From the NCBI GenBank assembly GCA_026397515.1, contig JAPLUU010000005.1:1-64000 (forward strand): a stretch of DNA of 64,000 nt, in the 5' to 3' direction. Below are positions 17,328-63,145 of the stretch, in pieces. The position numbers were made by a program, and so were the translations under genes. The DNA is from a candidate division SR1 bacterium. GTDB taxonomy: Bacteria; Patescibacteriota; Gracilibacteria; Absconditabacterales; Absconditicoccaceae. The notes under the pieces were generated by a model. The model ran no database searches and was not told the origin of the DNA. It saw nothing but the letters and a program-made list of their open reading frames with translations. The first letter of the stretch is position 1. Each line of letters begins with the position of its first letter.

Positions 17328-17720
17328 TTAAAGTGATACTAATACTTCCAAAAAGATTTCAAAATTGATTTCAAACCATCTTGTGGTATTTTCTCCCTTG
17401 TTGAACTTATTAGTAGTGAACTTAATCCCGGCTTTTTGTTTGATAAGTTCCACAAGCTTTTTTTTGTGTCTTATACAGAGCCTAAATCCACCCTTAAAAG
17501 TTTCTGGGTTATAAAATTTATATCTTATATCAAGAATATCATTGAACTTTTTGTAGTTGTCTGCTGATTGAAAATCAACTTCAAAAACATAATCTGTTCT
17601 GTCATTTTTAAATATTTGTGAGCAAGGAGCGCAGTAATGTCCACCTCTTCCTCCTGGTTGTATTTCCAGTTCTATTTTTATTTTTACGTTACCCATATGT
17701 TTGATATTTGTTTTTCTCAT
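17328..17720 (-). CDS. Hypothetical protein without UGA codons
   Basis: 130 aa (or 122 aa from the ATG at 17696). I do not recognise it. It has a Gly-rich loop with a cysteine pair (QPGGRGGHYCAPCSQIF), a FEVDFQSADNYKKF strand-helix and a basic region (RLCIRHKKKLVELIKQKAGI). None of its nine glycines is UGA, unlike most neighbours. It has its own terminator and a TTGAC box about 60 bases upstream. This suits a separately transcribed, recently acquired gene. The CxxC pair could bind a metal, but that is speculative. Confidence 0.65.
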   Translation of the reverse strand: MRKTNIKHMGNVKIKIELEIQPGGRGGHYCAPCSQIFKNDRTDYVFEVDFQSADNYKKFNDILDIRYKFYNPETFKGGFRLCIRHKKKLVELIKQKAGIKFTTNKFNKGENTTRWFEINFEIFLEVLVSL

Positions 17721-38017: not shown

Positions 38018-38767
38018 TTACTTCTGAGATGGGATAGAAACGATAGTGCCACCGCTTATTCCATAGATAATGTATTCAGGTATGATTTCATTTCCCTGAG
38101 GAAGATAAGGTGCCCACTCTAATTTAGAAGATTTGTTTATAAATATTGCAGGAGCTTTTAGATTCCTTTTTGGTTTTTTGTACTTGATCATAAACCAATT
38201 TCCAGTAGTTCTGTAATATTCTTCCTCGGCTTTTTGGTACTGTGCTTCAGATACTTTACATTGCATCTTAGCAGAAAATAATATACGCATTACCGAGGGG
38301 CTATCCTTTATCTTGGTGATAAGACTATCTACATCATATAACACTTGTTTGTTTTCTGTGTGACAAGTGATAAGATGTAAATCTGAATGATACTTTTTGC
38401 CACCTATCATAACGAATGTTAGGCGTAAGGAAAATATTGTATCGTCACTGAAAAAAGAATAATGTGAAATAGAATAAGATGCAGCATTCCCGGGAATAGA
38501 ATCTTTTGTTTCATTGATTTCTATAACCGTATAAAGTAAAGAATCAACGAAATAATCATCTGTGTACAAAAACCAATGGGTATAATCCCAGGAAATATCT
38601 ATAATTCCTTGGTAAGGGGAAACCCACATGAATGGTCCTGAACCCATATCACCATGTTTTATAATACTATCTTTGGTGACACTGGTTATTGTCTCTATTC
38701 CAGTAATCTGTGCATTGGCAATTCTTATAAAAGCCATAAGTGCAAACATAAAAACTAATTTTTTCAT
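38018..38767 (-). CDS. Secreted hypothetical protein, probable Bacteroidota origin
   Basis: 249 aa. The signal peptide KKLVFMFALMAFIRIANAQ ends in the AQ junction common in Bacteroidota exported proteins. The mature part is beta-rich and unrecognised (GPFMWVSPYQGIIDISWDYT; PYLPQGNEIIPEYIIYGISG). All 13 glycines use GGN codons, whereas most neighbours use UGA for a sizeable share. The upstream region has TTGACA about 75 bases before the start with TATATTTA about 22 bases further on, and a private terminator follows. It therefore looks like a single-gene insertion from a standard-code donor. The function is unknown. Confidence 0.75.
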   Translation of the reverse strand: MKKLVFMFALMAFIRIANAQITGIETITSVTKDSIIKHGDMGSGPFMWVSPYQGIIDISWDYTHWFLYTDDYFVDSLLYTVIEINETKDSIPGNAASYSISHYSFFSDDTIFSLRLTFVMIGGKKYHSDLHLITCHTENKQVLYDVDSLITKIKDSPSVMRILFSAKMQCKVSEAQYQKAEEEYYRTTGNWFMIKYKKPKRNLKAPAIFINKSSKLEWAPYLPQGNEIIPEYIIYGISGGTIVSIPSQK

Positions 38768-49025: not shown

Positions 49026-49433
49026 ATGGAAAAGCGAAAAAAAATATTTGTTATTTGTCCTGTAGAGATAACAGATGATGTGACAAAAAAAAAGCTTGAA
49101 GATTACAAAAAAAAGCTTGAAGCACAAGGATATGAAGTATATTTACCACATTTTGATACCAATCAAGAAGCAAGTGAATATGAAATTTGTCTCCAAAAAA
49201 TGAAAGCTATTATGGAAGCAGATGAAGTACATATCTTTTTTGTTCCTCTTTCTTGTAGCAGCCATTTTGATCTCGGAATAACTTTCCTTGCCTGTTCATG
49301 TGATGAAAAAAAGATTATCAAAGTGATAGAAAATGGTGGACTTACCGATGAACATGGTCAAATAAAATTATCATTTGAAAAGTCTTTTGGTCAGATGATT
49401 CAAGAATGGGAAAAAAACATCTCGCACAACTAA
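49026..49433 (+). CDS. Hypothetical protein, nucleoside deoxyribosyltransferase-like fold
   Basis: 135 aa. The basic start MEKRKKIFVICPVEITDD is followed by a helix and the strand QGYEVYLPHFDTN. Then comes MEADEVHIFFVPLSCSSHFD and LGITFLA. A strand, acidic residue, strand, then S.HFDLG and a helix is the layout of nucleoside 2-deoxyribosyltransferases and related small Rossmann proteins. No further catalytic residue can be named. All six glycines are GGN, too few to judge origin. It sits 51 bases after the PKD gene in the same direction. Confidence 0.6.
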   Translation: MEKRKKIFVICPVEITDDVTKKKLEDYKKKLEAQGYEVYLPHFDTNQEASEYEICLQKMKAIMEADEVHIFFVPLSCSSHFDLGITFLACSCDEKKIIKVIENGGLTDEHGQIKLSFEKSFGQMIQEWEKNISHN

Positions 49434-56758: not shown

Positions 56759-58858
56759 ATGGCCGAGCAAAAACCCTTAGACAAGGTGAGAAACATTGGA
56801 ATCATGGCTCACATTGACGCAGGTAAAACTACTACCACTGAAAGAGTGTTGTTTTATACCGGAAAAAAACACAAAATCTGAGAAGTACATGATGGTGCTG
56901 CAGAGATGGACTGGATGGAACAAGAAAAAGAAAGAGGAATCACTATTACCTCAGCTGCTACTACTTGTTTTTGGAAGGAGTATCATATCAATATTATCGA
57001 CACCCCTTGACACGTGGATTTTACGGTTGAAGTAGAAAGATCATTGAGAGTTCTTGATGGTGCAGTAGCATTGCTTGATAGTTCTCAAGGAGTTGAACCG
57101 CAAACGGAAACAGTTTGGAGACAAGCTGACAAATATGGTGTGCCAAGAATTATCTTTGCAAACAAGATGGATAAACTTGGAGCTGATTTTTATATGTCAG
57201 TAGAATCTATCAAATCTAGAATTACTGACAAAGGAGTTGTTCTTCAACTTCCTGTAGGACAAGCTGATGAATTTAAAGCAATCATCGATTTGCTTACTAT
57301 GAAAATGTATACATTCTCAGGAGACAAAGGTATCGAAGTTCATGAAGAAGAAATACCAGCTGATATGCTAGAAAAATCAAAGAAATATAGAGAAGAAATG
57401 ATAGATAAGGTATCTATGTTTGATGATGAATTAGCAGAAAAATTTCTCGCAGGAGAAGAACCATCTATTGATCTTATCAAAAAAGCAATCAGAAAAGGTA
57501 CTATCACAAGTAATTTGTATCCTATACTTTGTGGTTCAGCACTTGGAAATAAGTGAGTACAACTTGTACTCGATGCAGTACTTGATTTCTTACCATGTCC
57601 TCTTGATAGAGGATCTATGAAAGGACTTGATCCAGATGATGAAACTAAAATACTTGAAAGACAACCAAACGATACTGATCCTGTTTCAGCTATTGCATTC
57701 AAAATCGCTACAGATCCATTCGTAGGTACACTTACATTCGTAAGAGTATATTCAGGGATTATTAGGACAGGAGATACATTACTCAATCCTCTTACAAGAC
57801 AGAAAGAAAGAGTAGGAAGGTTATTACTTATGCACGCAAACAAGAGAGAAGAGATTTCAGAAATACATGCTGGTCATATCTGTGCGTTCCTTGGACTCAA
57901 AGATACGAGAACAGGACACACATTATGTGATATAAAAAACCCTATCATTCTAGAAAAGATGACATTCCCAATACCAGTTATCGATATCGCTATCGAACCA
58001 AAAACTAAATCTGATCAAGAAAGGATGGGTATCGCACTTTCCAAACTTGCATACGAAGATCCTTCATTCAAATATTTTTCTGATCCAGAAAGCAATCAAA
58101 CAATCATTGCAGGAATGGGAGAATTGCATCTAGAAATTATTGTAGATAGATTGAGAAGAGAACATAAAGTAGAAGTAAATACAGGTAAACCACAAGTTGC
58201 CTATAGAGAAACGATTACGCAAGATGCTAAAGGAGAAGGAATATTCAAGAGACAAACAGGAGGTAGAGGACAATTTGGACACGTATTATTGAGACTTGAA
58301 AAAAATATGGAAAAAGAGTACGAATTCAAAGATGAAGTATCTGGAGGAACAATTCCAAAAGAGTTTATCCCAGCAATTGATAAAGGAGCAAAAGAAACAG
58401 TTGCTCAAGGAATATTAGCAGGGTATCCTATCATCAATGTAAGAGTAGTTCCTTACGATGGATCATATCATGATGTGGATTCATCAGAAATTGCCTTCAA
58501 AATAGCAACGTATAGAGCATTCAAAGATGCATTTGCGAAAGCAGGTCCATGTATTTTGGAACCTATCATGGATGTAGAAGTAGTAACTCCAGAAGATTAT
58601 GTTGGAGATGTAATGGGAGATCTTTCTTCTAGAAGAGGAATGATCCAAGGACAAGACAAGAGAGGAAACGCAGCTGTTATCAAAGCTAAGGTTCCATTGT
58701 CAGAAATGTTTGGATATACAACTGATCTCAGATCAAATACACAAGGAAGAGCACAATCATCTATGGAATTCGCATCATACGAAAAAGTGCCAGATAATGT
58801 GGCTAAGAAAATCATCGAAGAAAGATCAGGAAAAATGAAAGCTATGGACGCTGAATAA
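56759..58858 (+). CDS. fusA: Elongation factor G
   Basis: 699 aa, normal length. G1 [20 protein letters not shown]; switch region [18 protein letters not shown]3 [20 protein letters not shown] with the Gly as UGA at 57008-57010; G4 [13 protein letters not shown]. Domain II follows, then domain IV with [14 protein letters not shown] and [14 protein letters not shown], and domain V with [21 protein letters not shown] translocates the ribosome. It uses UGA only three or so times among many glycines, so highly expressed genes seem to avoid UGA. A strong bidirectional hairpin terminator follows. fusA stands alone here, away from rpsL/rpsG/tuf. Confidence 0.98.
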
Positions 58859-58958: not shown

Positions 58959-59462
58959 ATGAAAAAGAAAATCGTCATCAATGACAAGATGCAGAAAAAC
59001 TATACCTATTATCTGACCCAGCCGATGGGCAAGAAATTTTCTCCGATGTTTCATCCCGAATTGACACCGCAAGAAATGCTCGAGATGGGCGTATTCTGAG
59101 GAAAATACATGACAGATTGTCAGAAAGAATTTCCTTCATCGCGATACAAGAAAGCGAAATTATGCTCGACGAAACATGATCCGAAACTAAATTTCTTCGG
59201 AGTGAATGCATCGCAGTCGTTGAAAGTCCGACAAGAAAAATGATGGATATATCCAGAAGATCCGCGTGGTCGATTTCAACGATATTGCAGATATTATATG
59301 GGCAGAAGGGGACCTGATGATGAACGTCAGATTAAACGCCGAAGAGCTATGACTAGACATGTAAAAGCAATCAAAAATAATTGTTATCCATTGGATCGGG
59401 AATGTAGAAAAAGACAGAGACAAGCAGTTCTTCATTGGGCATATGATGCAAGGAAAATATAA
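58959..59462 (+). CDS. Conserved hypothetical protein (LHWAYD family)
   Basis: 167 aa. I recall this as a widespread conserved protein with no assigned function. It has QKNYTYYLTQPMGKKFSPMF, PELTPQEMLEMGVFGGKYMT and DCQKEFPSSRYKKAKL, then DPKLNFFGVNASQSLKV, the Trp-rich EKGWIYPEDPRGRFQRYCRY, YMGRRGPDDERQIKRRRAMT and a final RQAVLHWAYDARKI. It is basic and has aromatic and Arg clusters that might suit nucleic-acid binding, but nothing is proven. It uses UGA in VFGGKY and EKGWIY. Base composition is higher in GC than most neighbours. Confidence 0.8.
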
Positions 59463-59500
59463 TGATTTTCTCTTACGGATTCAGTAGTATGTCAAAAATA

Positions 59501-59531
59501 AAAAAAATCCAGAAGTAAAAAACAACTGGAT
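59501..59531 (-). terminator. Terminator of the 59558 gene
   Basis: ATCCAG / CTGGAT stem with a 13-base loop; on the minus strand a T-run follows (A-run 59501-59507 on plus). Confidence 0.7.
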
Positions 59532-59557: not shown

Positions 59558-59863
59558 TTATTTTGTAGGCTGTTCGAAGGTAATATTCCTTTCCTTGGAA
59601 AACTTTTCCAAAAATTCATAAAACCTCTGTTCGTCGTAATCCATAATTTTTATACGGAAGTAATTCCATACTGTTCTATCCAGCATATTGTCAGGAAAAA
59701 ATGCTGGTGTAGAAATATTCGCTTCATTACTATCGATATAGATATTTTTAAACCCTTCTTTATCAAAGGCTTCTTTAAGTGCTGTAAATATTTCAATGAA
59801 TCCTATTCCACTGGATATTTGGAGCATGATACTTATTTCTTTCCCAAAAATTTTTATTTTCAT
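59558..59863 (-). CDS. Hypothetical protein in the transferred-gene island
   Basis: 101 aa, not recognised. Strand KIKIFGKEISIMLQISSGIG, helix FIEIFTALKEAFDKEGFKN, strand IYIDSNEANISTPAFFPDN and a C-terminal helix (YDEQRFYEFLEKFSKERNI) suggest a small alpha/beta fold. No UGA codon among its four glycines. Upstream is TTGAC, 15 bases, then TATATT. It has its own terminator. It neighbours two other genes without UGA codons. Confidence 0.7.
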   Translation of the reverse strand: MKIKIFGKEISIMLQISSGIGFIEIFTALKEAFDKEGFKNIYIDSNEANISTPAFFPDNMLDRTVWNYFRIKIMDYDEQRFYEFLEKFSKERNITFEQPTK

Positions 59864-59994
59864 TTTCTTAGAGTTTTTTTATTTTTACTTAGAATATATT
59901 TATAATTATAGAAGTCAAGTATTTTTTTGTTCTATTGTTTTTTTGTGGGAATTTAGTATATTTGCAAAAAATAAAAAAATAAAACCAACCATAT

Positions 59995-60810
59995 ATGAAA
60001 ATATTACAGATTGATCTCAAAAAAGTCATCCAAGAGAAAAGCAATCTCTTAGCCAAGATACCTTTCTTTGTTCCTTGGTTAAAAAAAACAATCCATGAAG
60101 ATGAAATTAACGTGTTTCTACGTGATAATAGTCATCTTTATAATCTTGATTTCGTGACTGCAGTACTAGAATTTTTCCAAGTACATGTGGAGACGATTGT
60201 ACTTCATCCGGAAGCAATAGATCCACAGGGACGCTACATTTTTGCAGCTAATCATCCTTTGGGTGGACTCGACGGCATGGCATTTATAAAGGCAGTCAGT
60301 AGTATGTTTACGGAAATAAAATTTCCCGTAAATGACATATTATTACACCTTGAAAATGTAAATTCGCTCTTTTTACCGATAGACAAACATGGAAAATTAC
60401 AATCCCGTGAAGCGGTACAAAAAATTAATGAGGCATATGCTTCAAAGACACAGCAAATGCTCATATTTCCTGCAGGATTAGTTTCTCGCAAGATACAGGG
60501 CGAGATCGTTGATTTACCATGGAAAGATCATTTCATAAAAAAGGCCATCGAAACTCAGCGGGATATTATCCCTGTGTATATCGAAGGAAGAAATTCAGAG
60601 CGTTTTTATCGCCTATCAAAATGGAGAAAACGCTTTGGTCTCCCAAACATTGAAATGTTGTATTTACCTGATGAAGTGTTTAGACAACGCAACAAAACTA
60701 TAAAAATTATTTTTGGCAAACCAATTTCATACAAAACTTTTACCAAAAAATCAGCGCAATCTGATGCTGATTATGTCAAAAATAAAGTATATGAACTTAA
60801 TAGTCATTAA
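59995..60810 (+). CDS. PlsC-like glycerol acyltransferase, probable Bacteroidota origin
   Basis: 271 aa. The 1-acylglycerol-3-phosphate acyltransferase core is visible: IFAANHPLGGLDGMAFIKAV (His and Asp of the catalytic pair), FLPIDKHGKLQSREAVQKIN (block II) and QMLIFPAGLVSRKIQGEIVD (block III), then DIIPVYIEGRNSERFYRLSK. The NHPLGG.DG form and length match acyltransferases I know from Bacteroidota. All ten glycines are GGN. The upstream region holds TATATTTG, matching the Bacteroidota -7 element TAnnTTTG. It may acylate lysophospholipid or an amino lipid. CPR genomes usually lack lipid synthesis, so an acquired acyltransferase would be notable. Confidence 0.88.
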   Translation: MKILQIDLKKVIQEKSNLLAKIPFFVPWLKKTIHEDEINVFLRDNSHLYNLDFVTAVLEFFQVHVETIVLHPEAIDPQGRYIFAANHPLGGLDGMAFIKAVSSMFTEIKFPVNDILLHLENVNSLFLPIDKHGKLQSREAVQKINEAYASKTQQMLIFPAGLVSRKIQGEIVDLPWKDHFIKKAIETQRDIIPVYIEGRNSERFYRLSKWRKRFGLPNIEMLYLPDEVFRQRNKTIKIIFGKPISYKTFTKKSAQSDADYVKNKVYELNSH

Positions 60811-60820
60811 TAGGATTACA

Positions 60821-60848
60821 CTGGATGGTTTCCCATCCAGTTTTTTTT
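60821..60848 (+). terminator. Terminator of acyltransferase gene
   Basis: CTGGATGG-TTTC-CCATCCAG followed by TTTTTTTT. Confidence 0.92.
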
Positions 60849-60854
60849 ATAAAT

Positions 60855-60882
60855 AAAAAAGGCTGGATTAAGACAATCCAGC
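60855..60882 (-). terminator. Terminator of lipoprotein gene
   Basis: On the minus strand GCTGGATT-GTCTT-AATCCAGC followed by TTTTTT. It is back to back with the acyltransferase terminator. Confidence 0.88.
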
Positions 60883-60907
60883 ATTGATGTTTTTTTTTGT
60901 ATTTCTT

Positions 60908-61432
60908 TTAACGTTTTTTTTCTATCAAAACATTTGATAATGTATGCTTAGGTTTTGGTAGATACTCCATAATATTGGAGACAACGGGTTTCTGACCAGT
61001 TTTTTCATCGGCCAGGTTTATCGGAACGGGCTGCCCCTTACTGTCTTTGACAATTATGGGACCCTTCATTCCAACAATTAATGCAATTAAACTATTAGCT
61101 GTACATTTTTGATTAAGTTCCTGATATACCTTTGTTTTAATTATGAAGGGCGTTTCCGGAATCGAGTCATAATCAGTATCAATGAGTACAATCGTCCATA
61201 CCTTATAATCCAAAGTTTCAGAACCAATGTTTACCGTTGTTTCCTGGGGGAAATAAAGCCCATAGAGTACATTAGTCGGAGCGGTTTTTTTTACGCTTGT
61301 CAAAGAATCTTTTCCTTTCAGAGAATCAATTTTATTTTTTGAATTCTGTTCTGTTTTGACATCGGTGTTGCCACAACTAGTGATAAGGAATACTAAAACA
61401 CTAACTAAAATTAAATTCAATAATTTTTTCAT
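60908..61432 (-). CDS. Lipoprotein, probable Bacteroidota origin
   Basis: 174 aa from ATG 61432. A longer upstream start (61480) would put 16 residues before the signal peptide and is less likely. The lipoprotein signal is KKLLNLILVSVLVFLITSCG, with Cys as the lipidation site. A Lys/Ser/Thr-rich linker follows, then a beta-rich domain (NVLYGLYFPQETTVNIGSET; VWTIVLIDTDYDSIPETPF). Function unknown. None of its eight glycines is UGA. TTGAC and TATATT boxes lie about 45 bases upstream, and it has its own terminator. It is the third gene of the island that starts at 59558. Confidence 0.8.
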   Translation of the reverse strand: MKKLLNLILVSVLVFLITSCGNTDVKTEQNSKNKIDSLKGKDSLTSVKKTAPTNVLYGLYFPQETTVNIGSETLDYKVWTIVLIDTDYDSIPETPFIIKTKVYQELNQKCTANSLIALIVGMKGPIIVKDSKGQPVPINLADEKTGQKPVVSNIMEYLPKPKHTLSNVLIEKKR

Positions 61433-61546
61433 ATTTTTTTCATTTTTTTGATATAATATATAAATATAGACAAAAGTCAATAGAATGTATCTATAATAAA
61501 TATTTTTAATATAATTTATCCTTCCATTGATTATATCGTTATCATA

Positions 61547-63145
61547 TTACAGACATGCCGTGATGAGTCAGACAAAGAGGGGATGTGGTTTATCCAATCT
61601 TGAATTAAATTCTGGATGTGATTGTGTTGCAGTATAATAAATATGATTTGGTATCTCTATATATTCAACCAATTTTCCATCTGGTGACATTCCACTGATC
61701 ATCATGCCATTTTTTTCCAAGATTTCGTGATACGCAGGATTGACTTCATATCTGTGACGATGTCTTTCCTGGATGGTATCTTGGCCATATAATGCATGCA
61801 CCTTACTTCCTGCCTTCAAAATCGCTTCGTATAATCAGAGACGCATAGTTCATCATTTATTTTCAATAGTTTTTTGGTCCTCCATAATAGCTACTACAGG
61901 ATCAACTGTTCCTTCATTAAACTCCGTAGAATTTGCCGTTTCCAGTCCACATACGTTTCTTGCAAAAGAGATAACAGCAATCTGTAATCCTAGACATAAT
62001 CAGAGATAAGGAACATTATTCACTCTGCAATAATTAGCTATATTAATTTTTCCTTCTATACCTCTTGATCAGAAACCACCAGGAACTACAAATCATTTGA
62101 TATCATTTTCTTTGATATAATTAGATAATTTTTCTTCTCGACTTGGACCTTCAAATGATTCCATATCCAAGAGATGAACTTTGATTTTAGTATCATGATT
62201 TGCTCATGCATGTTGTAATGCTTCGATGACACTCATATAACTATCAGTCAAATTGGTGTATTTCCCTGCCAATGCAATATGAATCGTTTTGAGTGGGTTC
62301 ATGATAGCATTTACGAGATATTTCCAGTGTTCCATATCAGGTTCTCTTTGTTCTCAAAAGAGTCTTTTCTGGATCAAAAGATGTAGATTCTGTTGTTGGA
62401 ATGCGAGGGGTACTTGATAAATGGATTTTTGATCAAGTGCTTCTATAATGTGGTCTGAATCTATATCCGTAAACATGGATAATTTATCTTTGAGATCTTG
62501 ATCTATGTGCTCACGTGTTCTGCATACGAGTATACTTGGGTGAATTCATAATTCTCTGAGTTTGATGACTGAGTGCTGGATAGCTTTGGATTTCATCTCT
62601 CCTGAAGTCGTGACGGTAATCATAGGTACGACATGGACGATCATACAATTTTCTCTTCCCAATTCTTGACGAAGCTGTCTTATAGATTCAATAAAATGTA
62701 ATCATTCTATATCTCATATGGTACCTCATATTTCCACTATAGTAACTTCACTGTCAGCTGCGAGCTTCTTTATTCTATCTTTTATCTCATTAGTGATATG
62801 TGGAATAACTTGGACAGTCTTTCCTAGATAATCACCTCTTCTTTCTTTTCTTATGACGGAGAGATATATCTGTCCCGAAGTGACGCTGCTTTTACTCGTC
62901 ATACTTTGGTCGATAAATCTTTCATAGTGTCACAAATCTAGATCAGTTTCGAATCCGTCAGTGGTCACAAACGTCTCACCATGTTCAAACGGTGACATAG
63001 TTCCCGCGTCTATTTGAAGATAAGGATCCATCTTCATAATATTTACGGTATATCCAGACGCTTTGAGTAATTTTCCTATCGATGCAGCAGTGATTCATTT
63101 TCCCAAACCAGAAATAACTCCTCCTGTGACAAAAATCAATTTCAT
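61547..63145 (-). CDS. pyrG: CTP synthase
   Basis: 532 aa, normal length. The N-terminal synthetase domain has [46 protein letters not shown] and [20 protein letters not shown]. The glutaminase domain has [36 protein letters not shown] with the nucleophile Cys near residue 384, and [11 protein letters not shown] with the His-Glu pair. It makes CTP from UTP and glutamine. UGA is read as glycine at several invariant positions (LGKGI, GSRG). The last codons, GLITACL, end at TAA 61547. Upstream, about 185 bases separate it from the peptidase gene. Confidence 0.98.

Follow-up and report, generated by a model that had tools for sequence, protein, structure and literature searches.

A UGA-free glsA gene, encoding a predicted glycine-lipid acyltransferase, at the fusA-pyrG site of a code-25 member of the Absconditabacterales

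How do three consecutive genes come to lack a codon that specifies about one-third of the glycines in the genome around them? This question is raised by the fusA-pyrG region of a candidate division SR1 bacterium (order Absconditabacterales), found in the 64,000-nucleotide stretch of DNA that was analyzed here (hereafter, the window). In this organism, UGA encodes glycine: it occurs within the frames of fusA, a conserved 167-aa gene, and pyrG, which otherwise hold full-length proteins. The three open reading frames (ORFs) of the island at positions 59558 to 61432 contain 22 glycines (4, 10, and 8) and no in-frame UGA, as the initial annotation had observed. With UGA making up 0.32 to 0.33 of the Gly codons in the sampled genes of the window genome (G000), the chance of 22 glycines without a UGA is about 2e-4; the background counts come from mechanical ORFs in sampled stretches of the genomes. 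The private terminator that had been assigned to each gene is also seen: a strong hairpin with a T-run follows glsA, another follows the lipoprotein gene, and a weaker hairpin is located below the 101-aa gene. The layout of the region is as follows.

56759 to 58858, plus strand: left flank, fusA, code-25, 3 UGA
58959 to 59462, plus strand: left flank, conserved 167-aa gene of the genus, 2 UGA
59500 to 59530, minus strand: weak terminator-like hairpin of the 101-aa ORF (TCCAG...CTGGA and a T-run), read from the sequence; its loop exceeds the limit of the hairpin scan, and it is absent from the scan listing
59558 to 59863, minus strand: 101-aa orphan ORF, 4 Gly, 0 UGA
59891 to 59918, minus strand: sigma70-like site of the 101-aa ORF (TTGACT, 16 nt, TATTCT)
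59935 to 59964, plus strand: possible glsA promoter (TTGTTTT...TATATT), including TATATTTG
59995 to 60810, plus strand: glsA, predicted lyso-glycine-lipid O-acyltransferase, 271 aa, 10 Gly, 0 UGA
60820 to 60841, plus strand: glsA terminator, hairpin ACTGGATGG...CCATCCAGT followed by T8 (hairpin scan)
60862 to 60882, minus strand: terminator of the lipoprotein gene, strong hairpin with a T-run (hairpin scan)
60908 to 61432, minus strand: orphan predicted lipoprotein, signal with lipobox ITSC, 174 aa, 8 Gly, 0 UGA
61453 to 61480, minus strand: promoter-like site of the lipoprotein gene (TTGACT, 16 nt, TATTAT)
61547 to 63145, minus strand: right flank, pyrG, code-25, 15 UGA

Judging by its sequence, the middle gene of the island is glsA. 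Its 271-aa product matches the entire length of the NF053697 model (positions 1 to 267 of 267; 318.5 bits, 2.9e-95, against a curated equivalog cutoff of 260), as well as PF19576 (210 bits) and, weakly, the PlsC-type domain PF01553. The residues N86-H87...D93 (the NHPLGG-x-DG block) and the FPAG block are invariant between this protein and the GlsA of Bacteroidota. Of the earlier description of this protein as a PlsC-like acyltransferase, the second word stands, whereas a generic PlsC identity was rejected because the GlsA equivalog cutoff is passed; the lipid or envelope trait that had been suggested fits the predicted role of GlsA. The ornithine-lipid synthases OlsF and OlsB-OlsA share a superfamily with the window GlsA, and the OlsF model matches it at 188 bits, but this is far under the OlsF cutoff (620), with the N-terminal half alone matched.

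The window genome also encodes GlsB (NF053696, 340 bits, with a cutoff of 300). The glsB gene (G000:C12:34662-35582; 18 glycines, 0 UGA) is located on a separate contig from glsA, between rpsA and rluD; within the order, the two genes are adjacent in G046 only. Among the 49 genomes compared, which make up the family of the window organism and equal the whole order as sampled, GlsA above the cutoff is found in G000, G004, G006, and G046, and all four also encode GlsB above its cutoff. An even sample of 379 other Patescibacteria from across the phylum yielded no GlsB; the compared genomes are draft assemblies, so that absences may be gaps. The Bacteroidota pathway has two steps (PMC10191378): GlsB attaches a 3-hydroxy (beta-hydroxy) fatty acid to the nitrogen of glycine, and GlsA forms an ester at the hydroxyl group. 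As both proteins are encoded in G000, no gene of the known two-enzyme pathway for glycine lipids is missing there. The G000 enzymes resemble those of the Bacteroides pathway (NF053697, NF053696) in being full length, scoring above the curated cutoffs, and keeping the active-site block, and the same chemistry, with GlsB acting before GlsA, would be expected by analogy. In contrast to Bacteroides, the organism is a code-25 patescibacterium without an AMP-binding ligase, and its gls genes are unlinked, have their own terminators, and never use UGA. A host-dependent lineage that is thought to have no lipid synthesis has a complete gene pair for a Bacteroidota-type aminolipid, and the pair suggests that Bacteroidota are, or once were, its partners. 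The literature searched contains no paper that ties glycine lipids to Patescibacteria or Gracilibacteria.

Fatty-acid-activating AMP-binding ligases were considered as a route of acyl supply and rejected, as none was found in the 9 genomes of the genus. Acyl carrier protein is present in G000, G003, G005, and G009 and was not found in G004 or G006. Its gene in G000 (G000:C7:28851-29051; L117, L123) is itself a UGA-free frame in this lineage without AMP-binding ligases.

The two genes that flank glsA encode orphans. The 101-aa protein has no match in Pfam, NCBIfam, or PDB, no recognizable features, and no relative among viral contigs or sampled related loci, and no relative of the 174-aa lipoprotein was found in protein families, PDB, viral contigs, or sampled related loci. 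Because detectable relatives are lacking, the source of these two genes cannot be told, and their sequences give no evidence on the donor. A viral origin of the three island proteins was rejected, as none has relatives among viral contigs, and plasmid matches are distant (46% at best).

For glsA, an ultimate origin in Bacteroidota is likely. GlsA above the cutoff is encoded by 71 of the 198 sampled Bacteroidia, and GlsB by none of the 379 other Patescibacteria, a distribution that favors Bacteroidota as the donor and the code-25 lineage as the recipient. In a GlsA tree rooted on OlsF, the three copies from the genus of the window organism form a single clade (support 100/99) inside a set that includes G046 and the Bacteroidales families Paludibacteraceae and Prevotellaceae (100/95). 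A placement of the order's GlsA outside all sampled Bacteroidota is not rejected by the AU test (p = 0.143); thus, the Bacteroidota source proposed in the initial annotation holds for glsA as a likely one, not in the strict sense. In the GlsB tree, all copies from the order that score over or near the cutoff form one clade (100/99), and a single genus clade of GlsB is not rejected (p-AU = 0.164). In mats, Absconditabacteria are found together with Bacteroidetes (PMC8406219), and 126 horizontally acquired genes have been reported in the absconditabacterium Vampirococcus lugosii (PMC8080830), likewise a case of foreign genes offsetting reductive evolution in a code-25 lineage.

The family affiliation of GlsA and the lack of UGA would agree with a recent transfer from Bacteroidota together with a Bacteroidota promoter, a reading built on the initial annotation, which had likened TATATTTG (59957 to 59964) to the Bacteroidota -7 element. 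However, the best database relatives of GlsA are only 47 to 48% identical, with none above 48% in a scan of 84,980 genomes/species, and the genus-wide copies form one clade; for these reasons, a recent transfer of glsA is not supported, as far as the sampling shows. The promoter argument fares no better: the window contains 119 occurrences of TANNTTTG, the -33/-7 arrangement TTG-N19-TANNTTTG is found there once versus 1.8 times expected by chance, and the Bacteroidota-type pattern precedes only 5 of 46 Bacteroidota glsA genes. We consider such a recent transfer very improbable. Absence of UGA is not supported as a mark of recency either, as the Gly codons of these genes have turned over many times without producing it. 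Codon likelihood was discarded as a test of foreignness: the gls genes fall mostly 1 to 2 SD below the native mean, a shift that is not decisive.

Comparison of the locus among sister species clarifies its nature. In G006, glsA has the site and orientation that it has in G000, with pyrG on one side and the 167-aa gene on the other, and in G004 it follows fusA. As would be expected for an acquired gene, the site is empty in G009 and G010, where ~98 and 197 bp, respectively, separate the 167-aa gene from pyrG, and other UGA-free ORFs occupy the fusA-pyrG site in G007, G005, and G003. Given these varied contents, the stretch is an insertion hotspot. The glsA terminators are alike in G000, G004, and G006 (stems ACTGGATGG, ACTGGATAG, and CTGGAGAG). 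G046 has the two gls genes side by side near rluD, arranged as in Bacteroidota loci, where such adjacency is usual without being a requirement of the enzyme. The same comparison bears on a chimeric contig or contamination of the bin, for which the contamination estimate is 4%: the junction order recurs in the independently assembled G006 and glsA lies beside fusA in G004, which speaks for glsA, and UGA-using genes are found on both sides of the island. Such an artifact is hardly credible. For glsA, both a chimeric join and a set of closest relatives confined to code-25 lineages, which the initial annotation had named as the cases that would contradict it, are excluded.

Several other loci have related contents. 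The hotspot of G007 (L046:6987-9197) carries three UGA-free orphan genes, two of which look alike. A slot next to rluD (trpS in g19; L077, L078, L082, and L083 to L086) holds GlsB-like N-acyltransferases that differ by species and are nearly all UGA-free; the exception is a GlsB-like gene in G008, with 18 UGA among 30 Gly codons. What may be an aminolipid cluster is found in G023 (L041:7739-10961), where a FabF-like ketosynthase gene (29 UGA) is followed by distant GlsA-like (0 UGA) and GlsB-like (1 UGA) genes, and G025 contains a broken glsA-like remnant (L040:9333-10034), in which the match spans two TAA stops.

The exclusion of UGA is a property of the gls genes throughout the genus. Of 33 orthologous groups sampled there, GlsA is the sole one with no UGA (0/40, compared with a mean of 27%), and GlsB has 0/144 if the G008 copy (18 UGA) is left out. 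In G046, rluD has UGA at 16 of its 17 glycines and the nearby glsA and glsB at none of 37. The Gly codons that species share in glsA and in glsB show synonymous changes in most species pairs, never to UGA, whereas rluD, pyrG, and trpS swap UGA and GGN between species at similar or lower divergence. Avoidance of UGA as a slow codon in highly expressed genes might seem to account for this, as the UGA share falls with rising codon adaptation (rho = -0.20), being 5.8% in fusA and 0/37 in the EF-Tu gene of G042. However, the CAI values of glsA (0.48) and glsB (0.51) are below those of native genes (0.58 to 0.60) and of fusA and rpsA (0.73 to 0.75), and synonymous codon difference is 0.61 to 0.82 in most gls pairs versus 0.27 to 0.38 in most fusA and rpsA pairs. 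Because the codon adaptation of the gls genes is lower than that of native genes, high expression is quite unlikely to be the reason for their lack of UGA. These genes separate two properties that are usually merged, having no recoded codon and being a recent import: they look old, yet they exclude UGA. We found no description of such exclusion in long-resident genes in the literature searched. Two readings remain, an unfamiliar selection against UGA or divergence outside code-25 genomes combined with repeated import; the genes thus indicate either continual gene flow from standard-code cells or some constraint on the use of UGA.

The island is probably accessory cargo with a glsA core in the fusA-pyrG hotspot, derived from a glsA-glsB pair that entered the order once, long ago, most likely from a Bacteroidota-type donor, and from which UGA was kept out. 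G046 would retain the donor gene order near rluD, and in the genus of the window organism glsA would have moved to the fusA-pyrG site; elsewhere, glsA would have been lost. The UGA-free state may have been kept by selection in self-contained units, each with its own promoter, A-rich leader, and terminator, or by passage through standard-code carriers. Several observations sit poorly with this scheme. The codon adaptation of the gls genes is below that of native genes, as if they had not been ameliorated, and the G000 glsB is only 44 to 45% identical to the copies of sister species whose rluD is 77 to 83% identical, which suits separate imports, although a single genus clade of GlsB is not rejected. 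The AU result for GlsA and the lack of an AMP-binding ligase, and in G004 and G006 of an acyl carrier protein, also count against it. The unadapted codons and the divergent G000 glsB favor a history of repeated, independent imports, with a separate, unsampled Bacteroidota host clade as the source of glsA and glsB for each species; the copies would then have diverged in standard-code genomes, leaving no time for UGA to appear. Zero UGA despite saturated Gly codons, near-equal identities (61 to 62%) among the three genus glsA genes irrespective of species kinship, a hotspot that accepts varied UGA-free cargo, and the co-occurrence in mats mentioned above would fit as well. On the other hand, the site and orientation of glsA are the same in G000 and G006, its terminators are similar in three species, the copies form one clade with no Bacteroidota inside, and the scan revealed nothing closer than 48%. 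In addition, a TTGACWTTT-N-TATA promoter precedes glsA in G004, G046, and, with one mismatch, G006, and just 1 of 46 Bacteroidota glsA genes. The shared site, terminators, and promoters favor selection, and we view the repeated imports as possible but doubtful.

We tentatively suggest, without giving it much credence, that the order keeps accessory genes (glsA, glsB, lipoproteins, and others) as self-contained units in which UGA has long been selected against. Each unit would consist of a TTGACWTTT-N-TATA promoter, an A-rich leader, a UGA-free gene, and its own terminator, and the selection could stem from translation in a state where UGA is poorly decoded or from a function needed in standard-code carriers. 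In the window, TATATTTG of glsA occupies the TATA position of the G004, G006, and G046 promoters (register +22); with its degenerate -35 half, the window site does not by itself match this promoter significantly. In the loci sampled first, which were chosen around gls genes, TTGACWTTT with TATA at the fixed +22 register was found at 26 of 44 UGA-free genes versus 11 of 296 UGA-rich ones, A-rich leaders were frequent in UGA-free genes, and a terminator was nearby in 64% versus 11%. In a further 400 kb, taken elsewhere in six genomes, the terminator link was repeated (7/14, or 50%, versus 26/259, or 10%), and the promoter link was weak (3/14 versus 12/263, p = 0.03; for the strict form, 1/14 versus 5/263, not significant). 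Some UGA-free genes in this set are just highly expressed, such as EF-Tu (0/37).

Several additional UGA-free genes were noted. Those in the window encode a 249-aa predicted secreted orphan (38018 to 38767, minus strand; 13 Gly, 0 UGA) with a TTGACAT/TATA promoter, a terminator, and no family match; a 130-aa orphan (17328 to 17720, minus strand; 9 Gly) with a TTGACAT/TATA-type promoter; and a 135-aa, weakly DUF4406-like protein (49026 to 49433, plus strand), a 43% identical relative of which, also UGA-free, is encoded in G009 (L044). A phosphodiesterase-like protein (PF00233, below the cutoff) is encoded by UGA-free genes with TTGACTT promoters in two species (L072:10996-11805 and L075:10324-11127).
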